Shown here: positions 8,718 to 54,866 of the stretch, piece after piece
Layout: the number at the start of each line of letters is the position of its first letter
How positions within the stretch are numbered: position 1 is the first letter of the stretch
Origin: Candidatus Roizmanbacteria bacterium RIFCSPLOWO2_01_FULL_37_12
Lineage (GTDB): Bacteria > Patescibacteriota > Microgenomatia > UBA1406 > GWC2-37-13
DNA length: 58,285 nt
Reading direction: 5' to 3'
NCBI GenBank assembly: GCA_001789645.1
Contig: MGAG01000037.1
Span: forward strand, 13,345-71,629
Notes under the pieces: generated by a model
The model's input: the letters and a program-made list of their open reading frames with translations, nothing else
What the model was told of the DNA's origin: nothing
Database searches by the model: none
Program-made: the position numbers and the translations under genes

Positions 8718-8784
8718 GTCATGCTGAATTTATTTCAGCATCTGTTTTTACTAAAATCAGATCCTGAATCAAGTTTAGGATGAC
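8718..8784. repeat. GTCAT...ATGAC double-hairpin repeat, copy 1
   Basis: A 67-base element with terminal GTCAT and ATGAC. The first hairpin pairs TGCTGAA with TTCAGCA; the second pairs ATCCTGAA with TTTAGGAT (one G-U in RNA). AAAATCAG lies between them. It separates the SafE-cupredoxin and CopZ-like genes. Confidence 0.75.
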
Positions 8785-8806
8785 AAAAAGTGCGCAAAAC
8801 TTGTTT

Positions 8807-13682: not shown

Positions 13683-14414
13683 ATGAAAACATTAGTTTTA
13701 GTCGGGTCAGGAGAATTTACGGACGCGATGTTAAAAGTAGATAAATTTTTAATTAAACTTGTCAAACACATTAAAGGCAGAAGCAAAATAAATATCGCGA
13801 TAATTCCGACAGCGTCTGTCCCTGACGGAAGGCAAATAAATTGGATTAATGACGGGGTAAAACATTTTAAAAAATTAGAAATTAATCCGTTCGGTCTAAA
13901 TATTGTAAATCGTCAGGACGCAAATAAAAAAGTAAATCTGCGTAAATTAAAAACCGCCTCAATTATTTATTTTTCCGGTGGACATCCCGGATATCTGCTC
14001 GAAATTTTTAAGCATACTCAAGCTTGGAAATTAATAGAAACACTTTATAATAATGGTGTAATGCTTGTTGGAACTTCCGCAGGAGCGATGATTTTGGGTA
14101 ATTATCTTTTGGGTAATGCTCAAGAAACTTTTAATAAAGAGGAAAAACCATTGTGGATAAAAGGATTCAATTTAGTTCCTTTTGCGATTTTTCCTCATTA
14201 TGATTGGGCAAAGCGACACAAACCAAAATTATTGGTTAAATTAATTGAATCGGCTCCCAGAAAAATCAGCGCAAATTGGTTGGGAATAGATGAAAATACC
14301 GCAGTAATAATTTCGGATGGAAAGAAAACTAAAATTATGGGTAAGGGTAGTGTTACTATGCAAAGGGGTAATGAAACCTTAAAGTATAATACAGGTCAAA
14401 AATTTCTAATTTGA
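13683..14414 (+). CDS. Peptidase S51 (cyanophycinase/dipeptidase E-like)
   Basis: A 243-residue protein of the S51 family. It opens with MKTLVLVGSGEFTDAM, has YFSGGHPGYLLE (about 99-110), the nucleophile elbow GTSAGAMILG (about 130-139) with the catalytic Ser, and FPHYDW and LGIDENTAVII near the C-terminal third. Family members hydrolyse Asp-X dipeptides or cyanophycin-type polymers; the exact substrate cannot be read from the sequence. It is followed by a palindromic repeat and a glycosyltransferase. Confidence 0.85.
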   Translation: MKTLVLVGSGEFTDAMLKVDKFLIKLVKHIKGRSKINIAIIPTASVPDGRQINWINDGVKHFKKLEINPFGLNIVNRQDANKKVNLRKLKTASIIYFSGGHPGYLLEIFKHTQAWKLIETLYNNGVMLVGTSAGAMILGNYLLGNAQETFNKEEKPLWIKGFNLVPFAIFPHYDWAKRHKPKLLVKLIESAPRKISANWLGIDENTAVIISDGKKTKIMGKGSVTMQRGNETLKYNTGQKFLI

Positions 14415-14418
14415 TTAG

Positions 14419-14450
14419 AGACAAATTGACGCGATCGCGTAATTTTGTCT
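14419..14450. repeat. ACGCG palindrome, copy 1 (intergenic)
   Basis: A 32-base palindrome with 14 of 16 positions paired. The core is ACGCGATCGCGT and the outer arms are AGACAAA and TTTTGTCT. It lies between the S51 peptidase and GT1 genes. Related copies are at 15668-15695, 48540-48575 and 54093-54122. Confidence 0.8.
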
Positions 14451-14465
14451 ATAAAAGAATATGAT

Positions 14466-15662
14466 ATGAAATTTTTATTTATTACTAATCCGGCCTATGG
14501 TCATCTAAATCCACAGCTGGGTATTATTTCGGAACTGGTTAAAAAAGGACATAAAGTCGTAGTTTACAATACGCAAGAATTTGCGGAAAAAATAAAACAG
14601 ACCGGCGCCGAATTCAGGTCGCCACCGTTTAAAATAGATAAATTCGAATTGCGGCAAATGGACAGCGCCTTAAACATAGCTGAAAAAATCCTGGAGATAG
14701 CCGATCCGGCAATCACGTCGCTGAATAATGTTGTAAGCTATGAGCATTTTGATTGTTTGTTGCATGATGCGGTGAGTCTTTGGGGCAAAATAGTCGGGCT
14801 AAAGAATAAGATTCCAACCGTCTCTCTGGTTCCCAGTATGGCAATAAATTCAAAGGTTATCTTAGCCTACACCAAATATCTTTTGTCTGATTACTGGCAA
14901 GAAATCAAAAAGCCTCTGAGGACATTAGAAACGTTTAAAAGACATAGTATGTTTTATAAAAATATTGGAGAAAAAACACCGCCGATTTTTGATTTATTTA
15001 TAAATAAGGAAAGACTGAATATAGTTTTTACTTCCAGATATTTCCAACCCTTTGCTGAGAGTTTTGACTCAAGTTACAAATTTGTCGGACCGATCATATT
15101 TGACAGGAAAGAAGAACAAGTTCCGTCGGAATTATTACAGACAGATAAACCAATCGTCTATGTTTCGCTTGGCACGGCCTTTAATGACGATATTATTTTT
15201 TATAAAACATTAATAAACGCATTTTCGCAGCTTCCCTATCAGGCATTTATTTCAATCGGAAGCTATTTAAAGAATTCTGATCTGGGAAAAATTCCGGAAA
15301 ATGTACATGTCAAAAACTATCTGCCGCAACTGGAAATTTTAAAGAAATCTTCTCTTTTCATCAGTCACGGTGGAATGAACAGCGTCAACGAAAGTCTGTA
15401 TTTTGGCGTCCCAATGTTACTTTTTCCAATCATCCAAGAACAGCATGTCAATGCTTCAAGAGTTGAAGAGTTGGGATTCGGAATTTATTTTCATAATAAA
15501 ATAATCAATCAAGGGGAAATTATATCAGCCGTCCAAAAAATTTTGAAAGACAGTTTTTATAGTCAAAACGCAAAAATGATAAGTAAAACTCAGCACGAGG
15601 CCGGAGGATTAACTGCGGCAGTGAACCAAATTTTAGACTATGCGAGTAGGACAACGAACTAA
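14466..15662 (+). CDS. GT1-family glycosyltransferase (macrolide/UGT-like)
   Basis: A 398-residue GT-B fold glycosyltransferase. The N-terminal half begins MKFLFITNPAYGHLNPQLG, where the His near the start is the likely catalytic base of GT1 enzymes. The C-terminal half has VYVSLGTAF, then VHVKNYLPQLEILKKSSLFI and the donor-binding SHGGMNSVNESLYFGVPMLL. Family members add sugars to small molecules or lipids. I start at ATG 14466 because the fold begins there; an in-frame TTG at 14445 lies in the upstream palindrome. Both flanks carry the same palindromic repeat. Confidence 0.88.
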   Translation: MKFLFITNPAYGHLNPQLGIISELVKKGHKVVVYNTQEFAEKIKQTGAEFRSPPFKIDKFELRQMDSALNIAEKILEIADPAITSLNNVVSYEHFDCLLHDAVSLWGKIVGLKNKIPTVSLVPSMAINSKVILAYTKYLLSDYWQEIKKPLRTLETFKRHSMFYKNIGEKTPPIFDLFINKERLNIVFTSRYFQPFAESFDSSYKFVGPIIFDRKEEQVPSELLQTDKPIVYVSLGTAFNDDIIFYKTLINAFSQLPYQAFISIGSYLKNSDLGKIPENVHVKNYLPQLEILKKSSLFISHGGMNSVNESLYFGVPMLLFPIIQEQHVNASRVEELGFGIYFHNKIINQGEIISAVQKILKDSFYSQNAKMISKTQHEAGGLTAAVNQILDYASRTTN

Positions 15663-15667
15663 TTTGG

Positions 15668-15695
15668 ACAAATTGACGCGTACGCGTAATTTTGT
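15668..15695. repeat. ACGCG palindrome, copy 2 (intergenic)
   Basis: Core ACGCGTACGCGT with arms ACAAA and TTTGT, 28 bases, two mismatched positions per arm at the same places as in copy 1. It follows the GT1 stop codon. Confidence 0.8.
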
Positions 15696-15729
15696 ACAGA
15701 ATCTTAATTTTAGACTGTTATGCTTCAGT

Positions 15730-16716
15730 TTAAAGAATAGCAAAAGAAAATAAGGAATCAGGATTGATAATTTTTTCTTCCGAGTTTTTAATTATAGTTG
15801 CACCGCCAACTCCCATCAGTAAAACTTCTTTTTTATTGAGATTAAAAATGCAGGCGGTTTGTTCGTCGATACCCATAATAGTTGTTGGTCCCGGAAGTAT
15901 TTCCAATAATCTCTTAATCCGTTTTTCTCCCATATAACACCGGCTGGTATCGATTTCTTTTCCGCCTTCGGTGTTGTTCCAGTGGGGAATAATCGTTAAG
16001 TTTAGTCCCCATTGGCTGAAAAAATCCAATCCTACTTTCCAGTGTAGGTCTTCACCGGCTTTATAGATTTCATATACAGGCAATAAATATTTTCCAAAAG
16101 CGATTGCTGTAGCTGAGGCAAAAGATATTCTTGTTCCTTTTTTACTTAAGTTCCTTAGATACTCATAAGCTAAAGTATCTTTTAGATGTCTGGCGGCATA
16201 AGAAGGACTGCCGGCTCCGGTGTGAATGTAATCTGATTCCAAAAGTGGTTTGAGGACAGAAGGATCATTAGTACTGTTAGGTCCGTCCCGTCTTAGTGCG
16301 GGAACTTTTGTAATAACCGGTTTATAGTTTTGAAGTCCGTCTTGCAGCATTTGAGCAATTCTCTCATACCAATAATGGGGATTGGCCTCAAATCCGGTCG
16401 GCGTTTCAAGCAAAGCGATTTTTACCGACGGAGCGATATCCTGGATCAGGTATTCGTGGATTTTTCTTCCGGTCGGAGACATTTCTCCTGACCCGAAAAT
16501 TGCAATTAAAGAATTTTTACTGTCCCGCGAATCCCGATTTAGTCGGGAGAAGCGGGATCTGAACTTTATTTTTTGACCTTTAGCGGTGTCTTCGATTAGA
16601 TAACCTTTTCCCTTAATTATTTTTCTCAGCTTATCCGACTCATTATATTTTTTTTCCGATCTTAACTTTTGTCTCTTTTTCACAAGTTCTTCAATTTCAT
16701 TTGTTATCTTGCCCAT
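15730..16716 (-). CDS. Fusion of a CysRS-tail-like helical hairpin to an S51-like domain
   Basis: A 328-residue protein. Residues 1-50 (RQKLRSEKKYNESDKLRKII, then GYLIEDTAKG) strongly resemble the C-terminal end of cysteinyl-tRNA synthetase. Residues about 68-328 form a class-I glutamine amidotransferase/S51-like domain: IAIFGSGEMSPTG, THTGAGSPSYAARHLKDT-type loop, SFASATAIAFG at the nucleophile elbow, and GIDEQTACIF. The elbow has Ser but lacks the GTSAGA consensus, so activity is uncertain. Residues about 53-65 are encoded by nested hairpins. It is the last gene of the GH130/ATPase operon, one base after the stop of the 45-aa membrane protein. Confidence 0.75.
   Translation of the reverse strand: MGKITNEIEELVKKRQKLRSEKKYNESDKLRKIIKGKGYLIEDTAKGQKIKFRSRFSRLNRDSRDSKNSLIAIFGSGEMSPTGRKIHEYLIQDIAPSVKIALLETPTGFEANPHYWYERIAQMLQDGLQNYKPVITKVPALRRDGPNSTNDPSVLKPLLESDYIHTGAGSPSYAARHLKDTLAYEYLRNLSKKGTRISFASATAIAFGKYLLPVYEIYKAGEDLHWKVGLDFFSQWGLNLTIIPHWNNTEGGKEIDTSRCYMGEKRIKRLLEILPGPTTIMGIDEQTACIFNLNKKEVLLMGVGGATIIKNSEEKIINPDSLFSFAIL
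16523..16557. repeat. Nested hairpin repeat inside the S51-like fusion gene
   Basis: TCCCGC (16523-16528) pairs with GCGGGA (16552-16557), and inside it TCCCGA (16532-16537) pairs with TCGGGA (16543-16548). It encodes the linker residues SRFSRLNRDSRDS in frame. Confidence 0.6.
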
Positions 16717-28102: not shown

Positions 28103-28169
28103 GTCATGCTGAACTTGTTTCAGCATCTGTATTTACTAAAATCAGATTCCGAAATAAATTCGGAATGAC
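28103..28169. repeat. GTCAT...ATGAC double-hairpin repeat, copy 2
   Basis: A 67-base element. Hairpin 1 pairs TGCTGAA with TTCAGCA; hairpin 2 pairs ATTCCGAA with TTCGGAAT. Compared with copy 1, the second hairpin differs but stays fully paired. Confidence 0.75.
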
Positions 28170-28201
28170 AATAGGTAGAATTATACTTTTTCAAAAACCC
28201 C

Positions 28202-29723: not shown

Positions 29724-31487
29724 TTATAAAATAGAAACAATTTTCCCTCTTAATTTTTCATATCCGTTCCAGCGGTCGATTTCGATCGAGTAGACGACGA
29801 TGATTTTTTGACCTTTAATGAGAGAGGAGTATTTTTTTGCAGTTCCAAACGAGATTAATTCAATTGGTAATTGATAATTGTTGATTGTTGATTGTTGAGA
29901 GGTCTCTTTGACTAGTATTTTTAAGTGGTCGCTTGACTTACCAAAAGATTTTACATCTAAGATTTCAACTTCGCTGTAAAAGGTAGGTTTGGGATTACCG
30001 ATTCCAAAAGGCTGAAGCTGCTCCAATGTTTTTGCAATTGAAATATTTAATTTTGAAACAGGAATTTTTATGTCGGCCTCAATAACACGTTCTAAATCTT
30101 TATTCTTAATTAATTTGTTAGCGACTTTGAATGCGGTCGCACTAAAAGTCGTAAATTTACTTTTTTCCATGGTAAAGCCGGCGGCGCCTTTGTGGCCTCC
30201 GACGTCAACTAAATACTTTTTTAAATCTCGCAGAAAATTTGTTATGTGAAAAGAAGGGATTGACCGTGCGGAACCCTTCAGAAATCCGTCGCTTTCGGTT
30301 ATGATAATTACGGGCCTAAAATATTCCTCTGCAATCTTAGAAGCAATTAATCCGATTATTCCTTCATGCCAATTCTTATTTTTTAATATTATTAATTTTG
30401 GTAATTTTTTTAGAGTTCGAGCCTGTCGAGAACTTCTCGACTCGTCACGTCCTTCCTCGCTCGAAGAGTAATCGTATTCTTTTTCAATAGTAGTTTTCGC
30501 TTCTTCAACTGCCTTTATTACCATATCCTGCCTTTCGCGATTTGTTTCCCCAACACGACTGGCAAGATTAAAAGCTTGATCATTATTTGTAGTGCAGAGT
30601 AGTCTTAGCGCGTCAATAGCGTGTTCGAGCCTGCCAACAGCATTGATCCGCGGTGCAATGATAAAACCGACTTCATAAGGAGTTATTTTTTTACCTGTAA
30701 TTCCGGCTTGATCGATGAGATGTTTGATACCGGCTCTTTTAATTGAAGTAAAAGCTTCGAGTCCATATTTTACAACGCTCCGGGTGGGTCCGGTCAGAGG
30801 AACAAGATCAGCAATAGAGCCGATGGAGGCTAGAGCGAGATAGTCGGTTTGAAAGTTTATTGTTAATTGTTGATTGTTAATTGTTGATTGTCTTTTAAAA
30901 TGTTCGAAAATTGCCTTCGCAAAGAAATAGGCGACACCGGAACCGGAGAGCTCAGGTATGTGAAAAATAGCCAGAGCGTCGTCCGGCAATTTCTCAGGTT
31001 TAAGATGGTGGTCTGTGACTATAATTGGTACTCCTACTCTTTTAGCATAAGTGATTTTTTCTTTGGCTGTAATTCCATGATCAACACTGATAATCAGGCT
31101 GGGATTGAATTGTTTTTTGACATTATCTATTCCTTTAATTGAAAAGCCGTAGCCTTCTTTTTTACGGTGGGGGACATAAGGCATGGTTTTAAATCCCAAA
31201 AAATATAATGTCTCCCAAAGAATTGCTCCACCGGTAATTCCGTCGGCGTCATAATCCGTGTAGACGACTATCATTTCATTGTTTTTTTTGATTTTTTCAA
31301 GCTGTTTTAGAGTTTTTTTTAACTCTCTTTTATATCCAAAATCCGTGAGTTTAATTTTTAATGGGTGGGTTGGAGTGATAAATTCTTTCGGCTTTTTTAT
31401 CTGCCGATTTTTTAAGAGTATTTCGACTAATTTATTTTCACTTAATTTTTCATTACTTTTAATTTCGTGCTTGTACTTAATTTTCAT
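29724..31487 (-). CDS. recJ: Single-stranded-DNA exonuclease RecJ
   Basis: A 587-residue RecJ, a 5'-3' ssDNA exonuclease for recombination and repair. DHH-domain motifs: DYDADG (78-83), VDHG (135-138), TDHH (158-161); then GSIADLVPL, the DHHA1 motif GGHKGAAGF near 440 and an OB-like C-terminus. Three non-conserved stretches are encoded by repeats, all in frame: STINNQQLTIN (about 199-210), YSSSEEGRDESRSSRQART (about 340-358) and STINNYQL (about 531-542). They fall in surface loops or linkers as far as the motif order shows, so the enzyme is probably active. Confidence 0.95.
   Translation of the reverse strand: MKIKYKHEIKSNEKLSENKLVEILLKNRQIKKPKEFITPTHPLKIKLTDFGYKRELKKTLKQLEKIKKNNEMIVVYTDYDADGITGGAILWETLYFLGFKTMPYVPHRKKEGYGFSIKGIDNVKKQFNPSLIISVDHGITAKEKITYAKRVGVPIIVTDHHLKPEKLPDDALAIFHIPELSGSGVAYFFAKAIFEHFKRQSTINNQQLTINFQTDYLALASIGSIADLVPLTGPTRSVVKYGLEAFTSIKRAGIKHLIDQAGITGKKITPYEVGFIIAPRINAVGRLEHAIDALRLLCTTNNDQAFNLASRVGETNRERQDMVIKAVEEAKTTIEKEYDYSSSEEGRDESRSSRQARTLKKLPKLIILKNKNWHEGIIGLIASKIAEEYFRPVIIITESDGFLKGSARSIPSFHITNFLRDLKKYLVDVGGHKGAAGFTMEKSKFTTFSATAFKVANKLIKNKDLERVIEADIKIPVSKLNISIAKTLEQLQPFGIGNPKPTFYSEVEILDVKSFGKSSDHLKILVKETSQQSTINNYQLPIELISFGTAKKYSSLIKGQKIIVVYSIEIDRWNGYEKLRGKIVSIL
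29863..29897 (+). repeat. Heptad array 2 inside recJ
   Basis: Five contiguous 7-base words: ATTGGTA, ATTGATA and then ATTGTTG three times. The array is 35 bases and is translated in frame on the minus strand as part of QQSTINNYQLPIE in RecJ. Confidence 0.8.
30414..30468 (-). repeat. In-frame palindromic repeat (TCGAG family) in recJ
   Basis: On the minus strand it runs from TTACTCTTCGAG, through GAGTCGAGAAG, to a 21-mer starting AGTTCTCGACAGG. The same order of blocks occurs in epmA at 54298-54350. In both genes it is read in the same frame, giving DYSSS...SSRQART. Confidence 0.75.
30859..30892 (+). repeat. Heptad array 1 inside recJ
   Basis: Alternating ATTGTTA and ATTGTTG words, four full copies and a partial fifth, without interruption. 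On the minus strand they encode QSTINNQQLTIN in RecJ. A 7-base unit read in threes gives a 7-residue repeat. Confidence 0.85.
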
Positions 31488-42588: not shown

Positions 42589-42650
42589 GTCATCCCGAAC
42601 TTGTTTCGGGATCCCGTTAAAATCAGATGCTGAAACAAGTTCAGCATGAC
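42589..42650. repeat. GTCAT...ATGAC double-hairpin repeat, copy 3
   Basis: A 62-base element. Hairpin 1 pairs ATCCCGAA with TTTCGGGAT; hairpin 2 pairs ATGCTGAA with TTCAGCAT. The two hairpin types are swapped relative to copies 1 and 2. Confidence 0.75.
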
Positions 42651-42660
42651 AAAAACATAA

Positions 42661-43236
42661 ATGTTAGATCACATAATTCCATCCAAGGCCAGAAGAAAGA
42701 TACTGCAGCTTTTTTTTCAAAACCCGAACAGCAGTTTTTATTTAAGAAAAATAGTAAGGGACATCGGCGAAGAGGTTAACGCTGTCAAAAGAGAGCTTGA
42801 TATATTATCTCAGGCAAAACTGCTGCATAAAGAAAAAAGGCTTAATAAAATTTTCTATACGCTCAATAAAAATTATCTCCTATATGATGAATTTTTGAGA
42901 ATTTTTGCGAAGTCGGCTTTTTTGGCTGAATTGATCTATAAAAATTTATCTAAAATCGGTAAGGTCAAATTTATAGTTATCTCAACTAAATTCGTGAAAC
43001 AGACTCCAATTAAAGAAGACGAGATTTATCTTTTGATTGTGGGTATTATTGTGGTCCCGGAAGTAGCGGCTATAGTCTCGGAGGCGGAAAAGCAGTTTGG
43101 CCGTGAAGTAAACTACACCGTAATGGCTGAGGAGGAGTTTGCTTTCCGCAAAAAGAATAACGATCCGTTTATCTGGAGATTTTTAAAACAACCAAAAGTA
43201 ATGCTGGTTGGGACAGAAGACGACCTACTTAAATGA
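42661..43236 (+). CDS. Winged-helix regulator with degenerate nucleotidyltransferase-like domain
   Basis: A 191-residue protein. Residues 1-75 form a winged helix (ARRKILQLFFQNPNSSFYLRKI, VKRELDILSQAKLL), and residues about 95-185 resemble the MNT nucleotidyltransferase fold that often follows in CPR proteins. The catalytic Gly-Ser and Asp-x-Asp residues are missing: the equivalent region is VISTKFVKQTPIKEDEIYLLIVG. It is probably a DNA-binding regulator with a sensing domain. A GTCAT-type repeat lies directly upstream. Confidence 0.75.
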   Translation: MLDHIIPSKARRKILQLFFQNPNSSFYLRKIVRDIGEEVNAVKRELDILSQAKLLHKEKRLNKIFYTLNKNYLLYDEFLRIFAKSAFLAELIYKNLSKIGKVKFIVISTKFVKQTPIKEDEIYLLIVGIIVVPEVAAIVSEAEKQFGREVNYTVMAEEEFAFRKKNNDPFIWRFLKQPKVMLVGTEDDLLK

Positions 43237-45523: not shown

Positions 45524-45566
45524 AATTACGACTTTGAATGCGATCGGCGTAAAAGTCGTAACATCT

Positions 45567-48049: not shown

Positions 48050-48961
48050 TTATCTTATCAAACTTTTCAAAATATCTAAATTCTTCTTGTCTGGGCCTTG
48101 GTATTTAAAACCGGGAGTTTCTACAATAAAAGGTAAATGTTTTAATTTTGGATGGTTTAGAAGTAGTCTGAAAACTTCCATATTGATGGTTCCTTCTCCG
48201 ATATTTTGGTGGCGGTCGCGACCGGAATTAAATGGGTCGCGGCTGTCGTTGATATGAAAAAGTTCAAGTCTTTGCAGTCCAATTAATTTGTCAAATTCAT
48301 TTAGGAATTTATTTAATTTTTCAGAGGTGGTTAGATCATAGCCGGCTGAATGAAGATGGCACGTATCCAGACAAACCCTGACTCTTGGATTATTGACCTG
48401 TTTTATTATTTCCGCAATTTCATCCAGATTTTTTCCGATTTTATTATTACCGGCATTCTCAATAATAAATAGTGAATCTTGAGGAGTTTTTTCCAGTATT
48501 TCAAATATATGTTTCATTAGGACTGAGATTTTTTTATTCATTGACAAAATGACGCGGTCGCGTAATTTTGTCAATTTTGGATTAAATAGACTTCTACCAG
48601 GCTCTAATATATTTGTACCTTTATCGAAATTTTTAAACGAACCAAGATGAATTATACTGCCTTTTATTCCAAGTTTTGGAGCAACACTTAGTTCTGAAAT
48701 TAAAGAAAGTTTTGACAAATTTCCGATTTTTTCTTCGTTGGCAAGATTAATTAAATAGGATGAGTGAAAGTAGATTGGATTAATATTGAGTTCTGACTTT
48801 TTGTTACGAAATTGTGTAGCCTGAACTTCATCTACTTTAGTAAAATTCCAGCTACGCGGAGAACTGGAAAATATTTGAAGACAGTTTCCGCCGATATTTT
48901 TAATTCTCTCGAGAGCTTGAGAATAATTACCGACAATTGATTGATGTGCTCCTATTTTCAT
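48050..48961 (-). CDS. nfo: Endonuclease IV (apurinic site repair)
   Basis: A 303-residue TIM-barrel AP endonuclease that cuts DNA at abasic sites using three metals. It starts MKIGAHQSIVGN and has IYFHSSYLINLA, IIHLGS, FIIENAG, VCLDTCHLHSAGYD, LFHINDS, RHQNIGEG and FIVETPG. The start at 48961 fits the family; ATG 48988 is an in-frame option. Between IIHLGS and IIENAG there are about 62 residues where E. coli Nfo has about 35; part of the excess (LTKLRDRVILS) is coded by the ACGCG palindrome. Confidence 0.94.
   Translation of the reverse strand: MKIGAHQSIVGNYSQALERIKNIGGNCLQIFSSSPRSWNFTKVDEVQATQFRNKKSELNINPIYFHSSYLINLANEEKIGNLSKLSLISELSVAPKLGIKGSIIHLGSFKNFDKGTNILEPGRSLFNPKLTKLRDRVILSMNKKISVLMKHIFEILEKTPQDSLFIIENAGNNKIGKNLDEIAEIIKQVNNPRVRVCLDTCHLHSAGYDLTTSEKLNKFLNEFDKLIGLQRLELFHINDSRDPFNSGRDRHQNIGEGTINMEVFRLLLNHPKLKHLPFIVETPGFKYQGPDKKNLDILKSLIR
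48540..48575. repeat. ACGCG palindrome, copy 3, in frame inside nfo
   Basis: A 36-base palindrome, 16 of 18 positions paired, core ACGCGGTCGCGT and outer arms ATTGACAAAAT and ATTTTGTCAAT. On the minus strand it encodes LTKLRDRVILS within a family-variable insertion of endonuclease IV. It is the longest and best-paired copy. Confidence 0.85.
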
Positions 48962-49940: not shown

Positions 49941-50429
49941 ATGGATCAAAAAGTCAAGAAGGAGGCTAAACCAGCACAAGATATCGAAAAAATTAAGAAA
50001 GAAAATGAAGAATTAAAAAAACAAATAGAAGATTTTAAGAACAAATATTTAAGAGCCCTGGCCGACTATCAGAACTATGAAAAAAGAGTAAAAGTAGAAA
50101 AAGATCAAGTTAGCCAAACGGTGACTAAGAATGTTCTTTTAAAATTATTACCTTTTTTAGACAATCTTGATAAGGCGCAAGCGTTTGTAAAAGATAACGG
50201 TTTAAAAATGATTAAGGACAACTTTTTCAAAGCCCTACAGGAGATTGGATTGGAAGAAATTCAAGTTTTAGGGAAACCTTTTGATCCTTACACTGCGGAG
50301 GCAATTGATATAGTTGAAGGAAAAGACGATAATATAATTGTAGAGGTTTTAAGGAAAGGTTATAAATATAAGGGACAAATTTTGAGAGTAGCACAGGCGA
50401 AAGTCAGTAAAAAAGTTAGTAATAATTAA
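49941..50429 (+). CDS. grpE: Nucleotide exchange factor GrpE
   Basis: A 162-residue GrpE that speeds ADP release from DnaK. The long N-terminal coiled coil (about 1-75, LKKQIEDFKNKYLRALADYQNYEKRVK) is followed by the beta domain with LGKPFDPYTAEAIDI and GYKYKGQILRVAQAKVSK. It lies 26 bases after hrcA and 110 before dnaK, with a GTCAT-type repeat between. Confidence 0.95.
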   Translation: MDQKVKKEAKPAQDIEKIKKENEELKKQIEDFKNKYLRALADYQNYEKRVKVEKDQVSQTVTKNVLLKLLPFLDNLDKAQAFVKDNGLKMIKDNFFKALQEIGLEEIQVLGKPFDPYTAEAIDIVEGKDDNIIVEVLRKGYKYKGQILRVAQAKVSKKVSNN

Positions 50430-50436
50430 CAATTTG

Positions 50437-50497
50437 TCATCCTGAATTTATTTCAGGATCTGATTTTACGGGGATCCCGGATCAAGTCAGGGATGAA
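50437..50497. repeat. GTCAT...ATGA double-hairpin repeat, copy 4
   Basis: A 61-base element between grpE and dnaK. Hairpin 1 pairs ATCCTGAA with TTCAGGAT; the second half is degenerate (GGGATCCCGGATCAAGTCAGGGATGA) and ends without the last C. Confidence 0.6.
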
Positions 50498-50539
50498 AAT
50501 TGATAAATCAATTTTCAGTTATAAATTTTGTAAATTATT

Positions 50540-53588: not shown

Positions 53589-53687
53589 ATGGATCTATAT
53601 TACTTCTTCTTCTTCTTTTCTTGTCAAGGGGCGCAGAAAAGTGTCAAAATAGTAGATATTAGTTATTTGATATTAGATAATAGGAAA

Positions 53688-54773
53688 ATGCGGATAAAAT
53701 CAAACATCCAAAATCTAAATAACTACAAAATCCAACTTCAGGTTGAACAGGCCGTGCATGAATTTATGCAATATAAAGGATATCTAAAATTGGACTTGCC
53801 GGTTATGAGTCCGGCACTGATTCCGGAATCCTATCTTGAGATCTTTGAGACTGAGTTTAATTATTTCAAGAGGAAGGAGAAATTATATCTAACACCCTCA
53901 CCGGAATTATTTATGAAAAGACTTTTAACACAAGGAATTGGAGACATTTATTATCTGGGAAAATCTTTCCGAAACAGCGAACCCAATTCCAGTTTTCATC
54001 TGCCCGAGTTTACAATGCTGGAATTTTATAAAGTTGGAGTAACTTACCTTGAACTGTCCAATGAGATATTGGAAATGATGAGATTTATTGCTGACAAAAT
54101 TACGCGTACGCGGAATTTTGTCCATAAGAAAATAAATAAAACTTTATTTTATCAGGGAAGAAAAATATCTTTTGAAAAATGGGAAAAATTTACTGTTGCG
54201 CAGGCTTTTGAAAAATTTGCACAAATTAAAGAAAAAGAATTGTTTAATGAAAAATTATTCTTGGAAAGGGCTAAGGAAAAAGGATATATAATTGATTATT
54301 CTTCGAGTGGAATCGAGAAGAATAAAAGTAGTTCTCGACAAGCTCGAACTGTAAACTTCACATTTCAGGATATATTTTCTCAGTTAATTGCACAGGAAAT
54401 TGAGCCTAAGTTGGGTATAAGCGGATACCCGACAATGTTATATGATTATCCTAAAGAAATGTCCTCGTTGGCTAAACTGAGTATGGATGGAAAAACTGCC
54501 AAGCGTGTTGAATTTTATATTAACGGTATTGAGGTTGGCGGTTGTTGTGAAGAATTAAACGACTGGAGAGAACAGGACATTAGATTTAAAAGGGAAAATC
54601 TAAAAAGGAAAAAGGAGAGTAAAATAAACCATCGTGTTGACAATGGGTTCATTGAGGCATTAAAATATGGCCTACCCGATTGTACGGGAGCAGGCATCGG
54701 CTTCGAGAGGTTAGCAATGATATACGCTGGAGTAAGTTCAATTGAGGAGTTGAAGTTAATTAATATTAGTTAA
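53688..54773 (+). CDS. epmA: EF-P lysyltransferase-like EpmA (GenX/PoxA)
   Basis: A 361-residue class II lysyl-tRNA synthetase paralogue without the anticodon domain. It matches EpmA: MKRLLTQGIGDIYYLGKSFRN, LPEFTMLEFY, the acceptor region VEFYINGIEVGGCCEELNDWREQDIRF and the closing IEALKYGLPDCTGAGIGFERLAMIYAG. EpmA links beta-lysine to EF-P, and efp is the next gene, which is strong support. I start at ATG 53688, where homology begins. Two in-frame repeats lie inside: DKITRTRNFV (ACGCG palindrome) and YSSS...SSRQART (TCGAG element). EpmB is not in the window. Confidence 0.9.
   Translation: MRIKSNIQNLNNYKIQLQVEQAVHEFMQYKGYLKLDLPVMSPALIPESYLEIFETEFNYFKRKEKLYLTPSPELFMKRLLTQGIGDIYYLGKSFRNSEPNSSFHLPEFTMLEFYKVGVTYLELSNEILEMMRFIADKITRTRNFVHKKINKTLFYQGRKISFEKWEKFTVAQAFEKFAQIKEKELFNEKLFLERAKEKGYIIDYSSSGIEKNKSSSRQARTVNFTFQDIFSQLIAQEIEPKLGISGYPTMLYDYPKEMSSLAKLSMDGKTAKRVEFYINGIEVGGCCEELNDWREQDIRFKRENLKRKKESKINHRVDNGFIEALKYGLPDCTGAGIGFERLAMIYAGVSSIEELKLINIS
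54093..54122. repeat. ACGCG palindrome, copy 4, in frame inside epmA
   Basis: A 30-base palindrome, 14 of 15 positions paired, core CGCGTACGCG with arms GACAAAATT and AATTTTGTC. It encodes DKITRTRNFV in EpmA, in a different reading frame from the copy in nfo. Confidence 0.85.
54298..54350 (+). repeat. In-frame palindromic repeat (TCGAG family) in epmA
   Basis: Blocks ATTCTTCGAGTGGAA, TCGAGAAG and a 21-mer starting AGTTCTCGACAAG occur in the same order as in recJ. The gene reads them in the same frame, giving DYSSSGIEKNKSSSRQART. Confidence 0.75.
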
Positions 54774-54776
54774 AAT

Positions 54777-54866
54777 GTCATGCTGAACTTGTTTCAGCAT
54801 CTTTCCTAAAAGATCCTGAAATATATTCAGGATGACGGGAGGTTGGATTCCCGCTTTCGCGGGAAT
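54777..54866. repeat. GTCAT...ATGAC repeat, copy 5, plus a third hairpin
   Basis: The double hairpin (54777-54836) pairs TGCTGAA with TTCAGCA and ATCCTGAA with TTCAGGAT. A third hairpin, ATTCCCGC with GCGGGAAT (54847-54866), follows, also ending in GAC. It lies between epmA and efp and runs up to the efp start. Confidence 0.75.

Follow-up and report, generated by a model that had tools for sequence, protein, structure and literature searches.

For many short dispersed palindromes, no mover is known. Among the described systems, the Rickettsia palindromic elements (RPEs) are given as about 150 bp long in PMC10969869, and REP/RAYT, as laid out in PMC2817692, have an arrangement that is closer than that of RPEs to a palindrome-flanked cognate gene. 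Here we describe a 34-bp palindrome of Candidatus Roizmanbacteria that is dispersed as solo copies and also flanks a small gene coding for a Cas2-fold protein. We consider it probable that the solo palindromes are the non-autonomous form of a tiny palindrome-gene-palindrome mobile element, with the Cas2-fold protein as its mobilising factor.

The window, i.e. the whole stretch of DNA analysed (58,285 nucleotides), belongs to the genome of an uncultured Candidatus Roizmanbacteria relative (1.34 Mb in 41 contigs), hereafter called G000, whose sister species is G005. The preliminary description had reported a palindrome at four places in the window, and full 34-mers are found at all of them, with the consensus TGGACAAAATGACGCG-AT-CGCGTCATTTTGTCCA in G000. 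Copy 1 (14418..14451, no strand assigned) is intergenic, after the stop codon of a peptidase-like gene (13683-14414) and before a GT1-like ORF (14445-15662), and it has a counterpart at the same place behind the G005 orthologue (L134:936-969). Copy 2 (15665..15698, no strand assigned) lies between convergent genes, 3 bp past the stop at 15662; none was found behind the orthologous gene in G005 (L134). Copy 3 (48541..48574, minus strand) is in frame within nfo (48050..48958, minus strand), coding for an endonuclease IV (Pfam AP_endonuc_2, with solved endonuclease IV relatives), and corresponds to the residues LTKLRDRVILSM. Copy 4 (54091..54124, plus strand), corresponding to the residues ADKITRTRNFVH, is in frame within the gene of an EF-P lysine ligase-like class II synthetase (53685..54773, plus strand; Pfam tRNA-synt_2), which we take to be epmA following the preliminary description; the best solved relatives of its product are putative lysyl-tRNA synthetases (3a5y, 3a5z and 3g1z). 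With up to three mismatches allowed, the motif occurs at these four places only in the 58-kb window and nowhere in 100 dinucleotide-preserving shuffles of it. The G/A asymmetry of the arms described earlier is seen in window copies 1 to 3 but does not hold for copies in general. Other repeats of the window include dispersed GTCATNCTGAACTTGTTTCAGNATC repeats (8718-8791, 28103-28176, 42589-42666, 50420-50509 and 54777-54836), unrelated to the palindrome, and several copies of tandem 30-base coding repeats at 404-523.

In the whole genome, a covariance model built from 14 copies yields these 14 clear copies and one weak match (C33:2739), excluded from the count. A degenerate 32-mer with up to three mismatches matches 13 places genome-wide. 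The core ACGCGNNCGCG has 14 forward and 13 reverse matches, numbers that drop to 0 and 2 when the pattern is reversed as a control; two core-only matches without arms were discarded as non-copies. Four of the 14 copies are located inside reading frames, those of nfo, epmA, a GT4 glycosyltransferase and a methyltransferase. They use two reading frames, giving two DKMTRSRHFV-like and two LTKLRDRVILS-like peptides, and the nfo and epmA copies are each read in a different frame, as had been proposed. Seven of the ten intergenic copies start at most 40 bp past a stop codon. A palindrome also precedes glyA by 65-90 bp in three members of the genus (L005 1490, L135 4001 and L140 4001), whose upstream genes differ.

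Comparisons of orthologues show that the epmA copy, the methyltransferase copy and the copy behind the peptidase-like gene are common to G000 and G005. The epmA copy of G005 is degenerate and at the same place (L139:4077-4110). The preliminary description proposed to check whether Nfo and EpmA of relatives lack the segment cleanly. The epmA copy is missing from family members other than G000 and G005, and the epmA genes of other genus members harbour different material in the palindrome-bearing loop; in G002 this loop reads CHPELVSGSDF and resembles, as identified by eye, an unrelated GTCAT repeat of the window. The nfo copy is also missing from the G005 orthologue, but the difference between the two genes exceeds the palindrome, with about 18 further residues unexplained, and its absence is therefore not perfectly clean. 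The GT4 copy is in frame, yet solved relatives bear a loop of similar length there, so that a clean insertion is not established for this copy. In the distant genome G014, a related palindrome is in frame within a tRNA-synthetase-like gene (named by eye).

Pairing of the arms extends 17 bp on either side of the centre and then declines towards background (31 copies from five genomes). The arms also co-vary: among 28 copies, 30 cells are changed on both sides versus 14.7 in shuffles, and the covariation score was reached in 0 of 500 shuffles. The palindromic state is therefore maintained despite sequence drift; such covariation would be the outcome of selection on a hairpin structure, and equally of one arm being copied onto its partner. 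One may ask whether the palindromes are bidirectional intrinsic terminators that look alike by chance, as many copies are located behind stop codons and between convergent genes, and at each of the four window copies either none or 2 of 200 shuffles match the folding of the RNA. However, a scan for the intrinsic terminator pattern (a GC stem followed by a T run) gave no site in the 14000-16000 region of the window, which holds the first two copies, and thus none at 14418 or 15665. Furthermore, the copies have long arm-specific sequence in common, some of them are inside genes, and different paralogues of the PaaX_M gene described below have palindrome sequences of their own. We regard terminators as very improbable.

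The partner gene was found on contig C40 of G000, where three copies are located within 1.2 kb. Two directly flank a gene whose 236-residue product has a match to Pfam PaaX_M, a family that represents the Cas2-like domain of PaaX, and the third is 0.4 kb farther upstream. The G005 orthologue has a directly adjoining upstream palindrome identical in sequence, and another palindrome downstream. The palindrome model run against 57 relatives matched 11 genomes, the source genome included, with weak matches in G008, G018 and G025 (E 0.004-0.009). All five class-level matches (in G048, G049 and G056) adjoin PaaX_M genes or lie within about 0.7 kb of them, a gene association that was not sought when the model was built. 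PaaX_M genes are present in 48 of the 57 relatives. From 76 matches we analysed 75 loci, leaving out a contig-end fragment in G026. Of these genes, 41 rows form a housekeeping clade that has Glu (SYEIPE), and the other 34, which are diverse, have the Cas2-type Asp. In a wider sample, 111 of 379 Patescibacteria genomes carry a PaaX_M gene, several of them with at least eight among the matches listed.

The association with palindromes distinguishes these two kinds of genes. Strict palindromes are found near 15 of 34 Asp-type genes, 1 of 41 Glu-type genes (Fisher 9e-6 between the two types) and 12 of 174 other ORFs of the same loci. We also searched for the best repeat common to both flanks (score of at least 15), a procedure that does not presuppose palindromy. 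The same repeat is present on both flanks in 23 of 33 Asp-type loci of the relatives versus 0 of 41 Glu-type loci, and in 50 of 59 phylum loci versus 0 of 177 mismatched flank pairs. At this cut-off, 9 of the 59 phylum genes and 10 of the 33 Asp-type genes of relatives have no flanking repeat, which counts against a mobile element. The strict palindrome score is passed by 30 of the 50 shared repeats in the phylum set (0 of 50 when shuffled) and by 7 of the 23 in Asp-type relatives; by eye, most of the remaining ones are imperfect palindromes, but a few, among them those for L146 and L182, are clearly repeats of another sort. This lack of strict palindromy in several repeats also counts against a mobile element.

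A strict scan of 60 phylum loci, taken among the best-scoring listed places rather than at random, and with rows of genomes already known and some broken or cut rows skipped, revealed a palindrome on any side in 39 and on both sides in 15, versus 6 and 1, respectively, of 40 other ORFs; one of the phylum loci, L376, seems to be the locus L309 again. When the genome contigs were scanned in the same strict manner, 10 of 11 complete genes of Parcubacteria-like genomes had palindromes on both sides, and 21 of all 45 loci of that scan, mostly from Roizmanbacteria, had one within 300 bp. Among 65 gene-adjacent palindromes, 63 have a C-N4-G centre, most frequently in the form GC-N4-GC; this survey considered 67 palindromes, 21 of them chosen by hand at about one per family. 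Outer ends of the TGACA..TGTCA type, like those of the window family, recur in palindromes beside distant PaaX_M genes in other genomes (L410, L418, L428, L433 and L381).

Palindrome sequences and PaaX_M genes form cognate pairs. A second palindrome, ACCATAT...ATATGGT, has four copies in G000, seven in G005 and three in G004, with 0 copies in the other three genus members, and one clade of PaaX_M genes is held by exactly the three positive genomes. Among 50 phylum loci, more similar proteins tend to have more similar repeats (Mantel rho 0.22, a value reached in 0 of 500 permutations), most strongly so in the 7 pairs with over 70% protein identity. For a third palindrome, the one beside L182, no further copy exists in the genus, which counts against a mobile element. 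Another family, CGACTTTGAATGCG..CGCACTAAAAGTCG, is represented in the window by a copy with the core GCGGTCGC in frame inside recJ (30122..30151, minus strand; recJ at 29724-31487) and by one with the core GCGATCGG beside the start of a gene of the metallo-beta-lactamase fold (45529..45558, no strand assigned). It is also present in G005 (L290 12413 and 13591), with a centre of the same kind; no cognate gene was found for this family.

The complete palindrome-gene-palindrome unit spans approximately 0.65-0.9 kb in the ten units measured. Two such units in the Parcubacteria MAG G057 (L308 and L310) share 79% identity over about 0.72 kb, with a similarity that begins and ends at the palindromes. 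Of the six exact core copies in this MAG, the two units account for four, and the remaining two are solo. At a tRNA-Tyr locus, a unit is found in G057:C3, and none in G057:C2 or in the relative G062, both of which retain the tRNA and the downstream gene. The two tRNA-Tyr loci of this one MAG (G057:C2:1-1589 and G057:C3 near 70000-71000) are 92% identical, possibly reflecting mixed strains. A solo copy is also missing in G062, where the matching flanks are separated by 33 bp versus 97 bp. The intervening bases at the tRNA-Tyr locus are too divergent to define the exact junction; across the loci compared, flanks differ by tens of bases and no base-precise empty site was obtained, which counts against a mobile element. 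No target-site duplication, the feature examined for membership among MITEs of DDE insertion sequences, was seen by eye at the ten units, and the flanks of the empty loci are too diverged to reveal one.

The mover of small palindromes dispersed in bacterial genomes is usually taken to act in trans, in favour of a scenario in which those described here would be MITEs or REPs mobilised by another transposase, the Cas2-like gene being a passenger or hitch-hiker. Consistent with it, GTAG-type palindromes of the REP kind occur at some related loci. This scenario does not fit well with the phylum-wide association of palindromes with Asp-type PaaX_M genes, with palindrome sequences that follow the protein, or with the size of the measured units, which are too short for a second gene of transposase size, and we regard it as quite improbable. 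The GTAG-ended palindromes were observed in related genomes at L275 2272, L277 9981, L282 4507, L291 11163 and L304 5333.

In the element protein, which is approximately 180-240 residues long, a DNA-binding winged helix precedes a Cas2-like domain of ferredoxin fold. The latter has the Cas2-type Asp, which we take to be the Cas2 catalytic residue. An AlphaFold2 model based on 28 sequences has a mean pLDDT of 76 and a pTM of 0.55; most of its Cas2-like domain exceeds a pLDDT of 90. In Foldseek, E. coli PaaX ranks first (8a39, E 5.9e-5), ahead of Cas2 structures. In VIA-align comparisons, PaaX 8a39 aligns over 161 residues (Z 9.5, rmsd 7.0) and the best Cas2-like chains over residues 154-236 (Z 8 to 9); MarR-type winged helices align to residues ~46-146 with Z near 7.5, a match that is weak on its own. 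Invariant residues in the 28-row alignment are W153, W157, D163, R172, L179, F184, S190, C198 and F233. All 28 proteins match PaaX_M and 20 match CRISPR_Cas2, and there is no Y1 transposase family among the ten families that they match. The Pfam CRISPR_Cas2 score of the L146 protein is 24.0 bits for a cut-off of 23.8, and that of L151 is below the cut-off; the best score with NCBIfam PaaX (TIGR02277) is 32.8 bits, far under the cut-off of 264.55. Most PADLOC and NCBIfam matches are to models named Cas2 or PaaX; the few others are weak and do not reach the cut-off. A phmmer search of PDB sequences with the L146 protein gave no significant match, four proteins had no match in PHROGs, and for 27 pattern matches in viral contigs no relative was confirmed by tblastn.

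This resemblance to known repressors such as PaaX counts against a mobile element, and we know of no transposase activity in the PaaX-like family. The main rival explanation is that the PaaX-like protein is an ordinary autoregulated repressor, that the palindromes are its operators and that the dispersed copies make up its regulon. The MarR-type winged helix and the fold match to E. coli PaaX fit with it, as do the position of the upstream palindrome, usually near the start codon where one is found, the existence of a family with a single gene-adjacent copy only, and the palindrome upstream of glyA in G000, G005 and G002 despite different upstream genes. However, the same repeat is also present downstream of the stop codon, the G000 copies in reading frames or shortly after stop codons are not at promoters, and a unit is duplicated, and absent from orthologous loci. 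Repression accounts for the presence of a winged helix and of a palindrome upstream, and it may operate alongside mobility, but it does not explain the genic copies, the post-stop copies or the downstream partner. As the sole explanation we consider it unlikely.

A mobile element is the simplest account of the flanking of the gene, the dispersal of solo copies, the duplication of a unit, the presence/absence patterns and the cognate pairing. In the mechanism that we propose, the protein would bind its cognate palindrome as a dimer at the C-N4-G centre and would nick or bridge it, cutting near the centre, probably when the palindrome forms a hairpin or cruciform. Palindromes might thereby be copied or moved to new sites, where genic copies would persist only when in frame and copies just past stop codons would be tolerated. 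The upstream palindrome probably doubles as an operator of the gene itself. More tentatively, and with somewhat less than even confidence, we suggest that the Cas2-fold protein might itself be the transposase, or a self-sufficient recombinase, of minimal mobile elements that form a new class, and that solo palindromes might spread as parasites of ~34-50 bp that occasionally become new protein loops.

Tying the palindromes to a Cas2-like protein of a large Patescibacteria family makes their mobility directly testable. If it is confirmed, a Cas2-fold mobile element would bear on the origin of Cas2, as an ancestor of the type sought by scenarios of CRISPR origin. The in-frame copies also show that palindromic elements contribute coding sequence to conserved genes outside Rickettsia. 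In the open-licence PMC literature, a corpus distinct from ISfinder, preprints and most subscription journals, we found nothing joining a PaaX- or Cas2-like protein with dispersed or flanking palindromes, and this kind of element is apparently undescribed. We rate it as new in kind because, although its plan is that of REP/RAYT, its protein belongs to an unrelated family, for which our searches yielded no mobile element. It would be a variant of something known, rather than a new kind, should the protein be an ordinary repressor.

The preliminary description likened the palindromes to RPEs, and the likeness stands insofar as palindromic repeats are dispersed in a CPR genome, with copies in frame inside unrelated genes. 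Membership of that group was rejected on account of the length of the Roizmanbacteria element, 34 bp with pairing at background beyond the 17-bp arms, and of its cognate gene. Its protein resembles the PaaX repressor in having a winged helix followed by a Cas2-like domain and palindromic DNA near the gene, but it is shorter, multi-copy and far below the NCBIfam threshold for PaaX, and its gene is flanked on both sides by a palindrome that is also dispersed. With Cas2 and VapD it has in common the Cas2-like fold and the conserved Asp, whereas its fusion to a winged helix and its flanking palindromes set it apart. REP/RAYT systems similarly have one small gene between short palindromes, solo copies that are dispersed and mostly intergenic, and complementary changes in the arms; here, solo copies were found for two families in G000 and one in G057, but not for the L182 palindrome. 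Unlike in REP/RAYT, the palindrome consensus has no GTAG head and is centred on C-N4-G, copies are far fewer (~15), a low number that counts against a mobile element, and some are in frame in genes. In place of an HUH tyrosine transposase, the gene between the palindromes codes for a winged-helix and Cas2-like protein.
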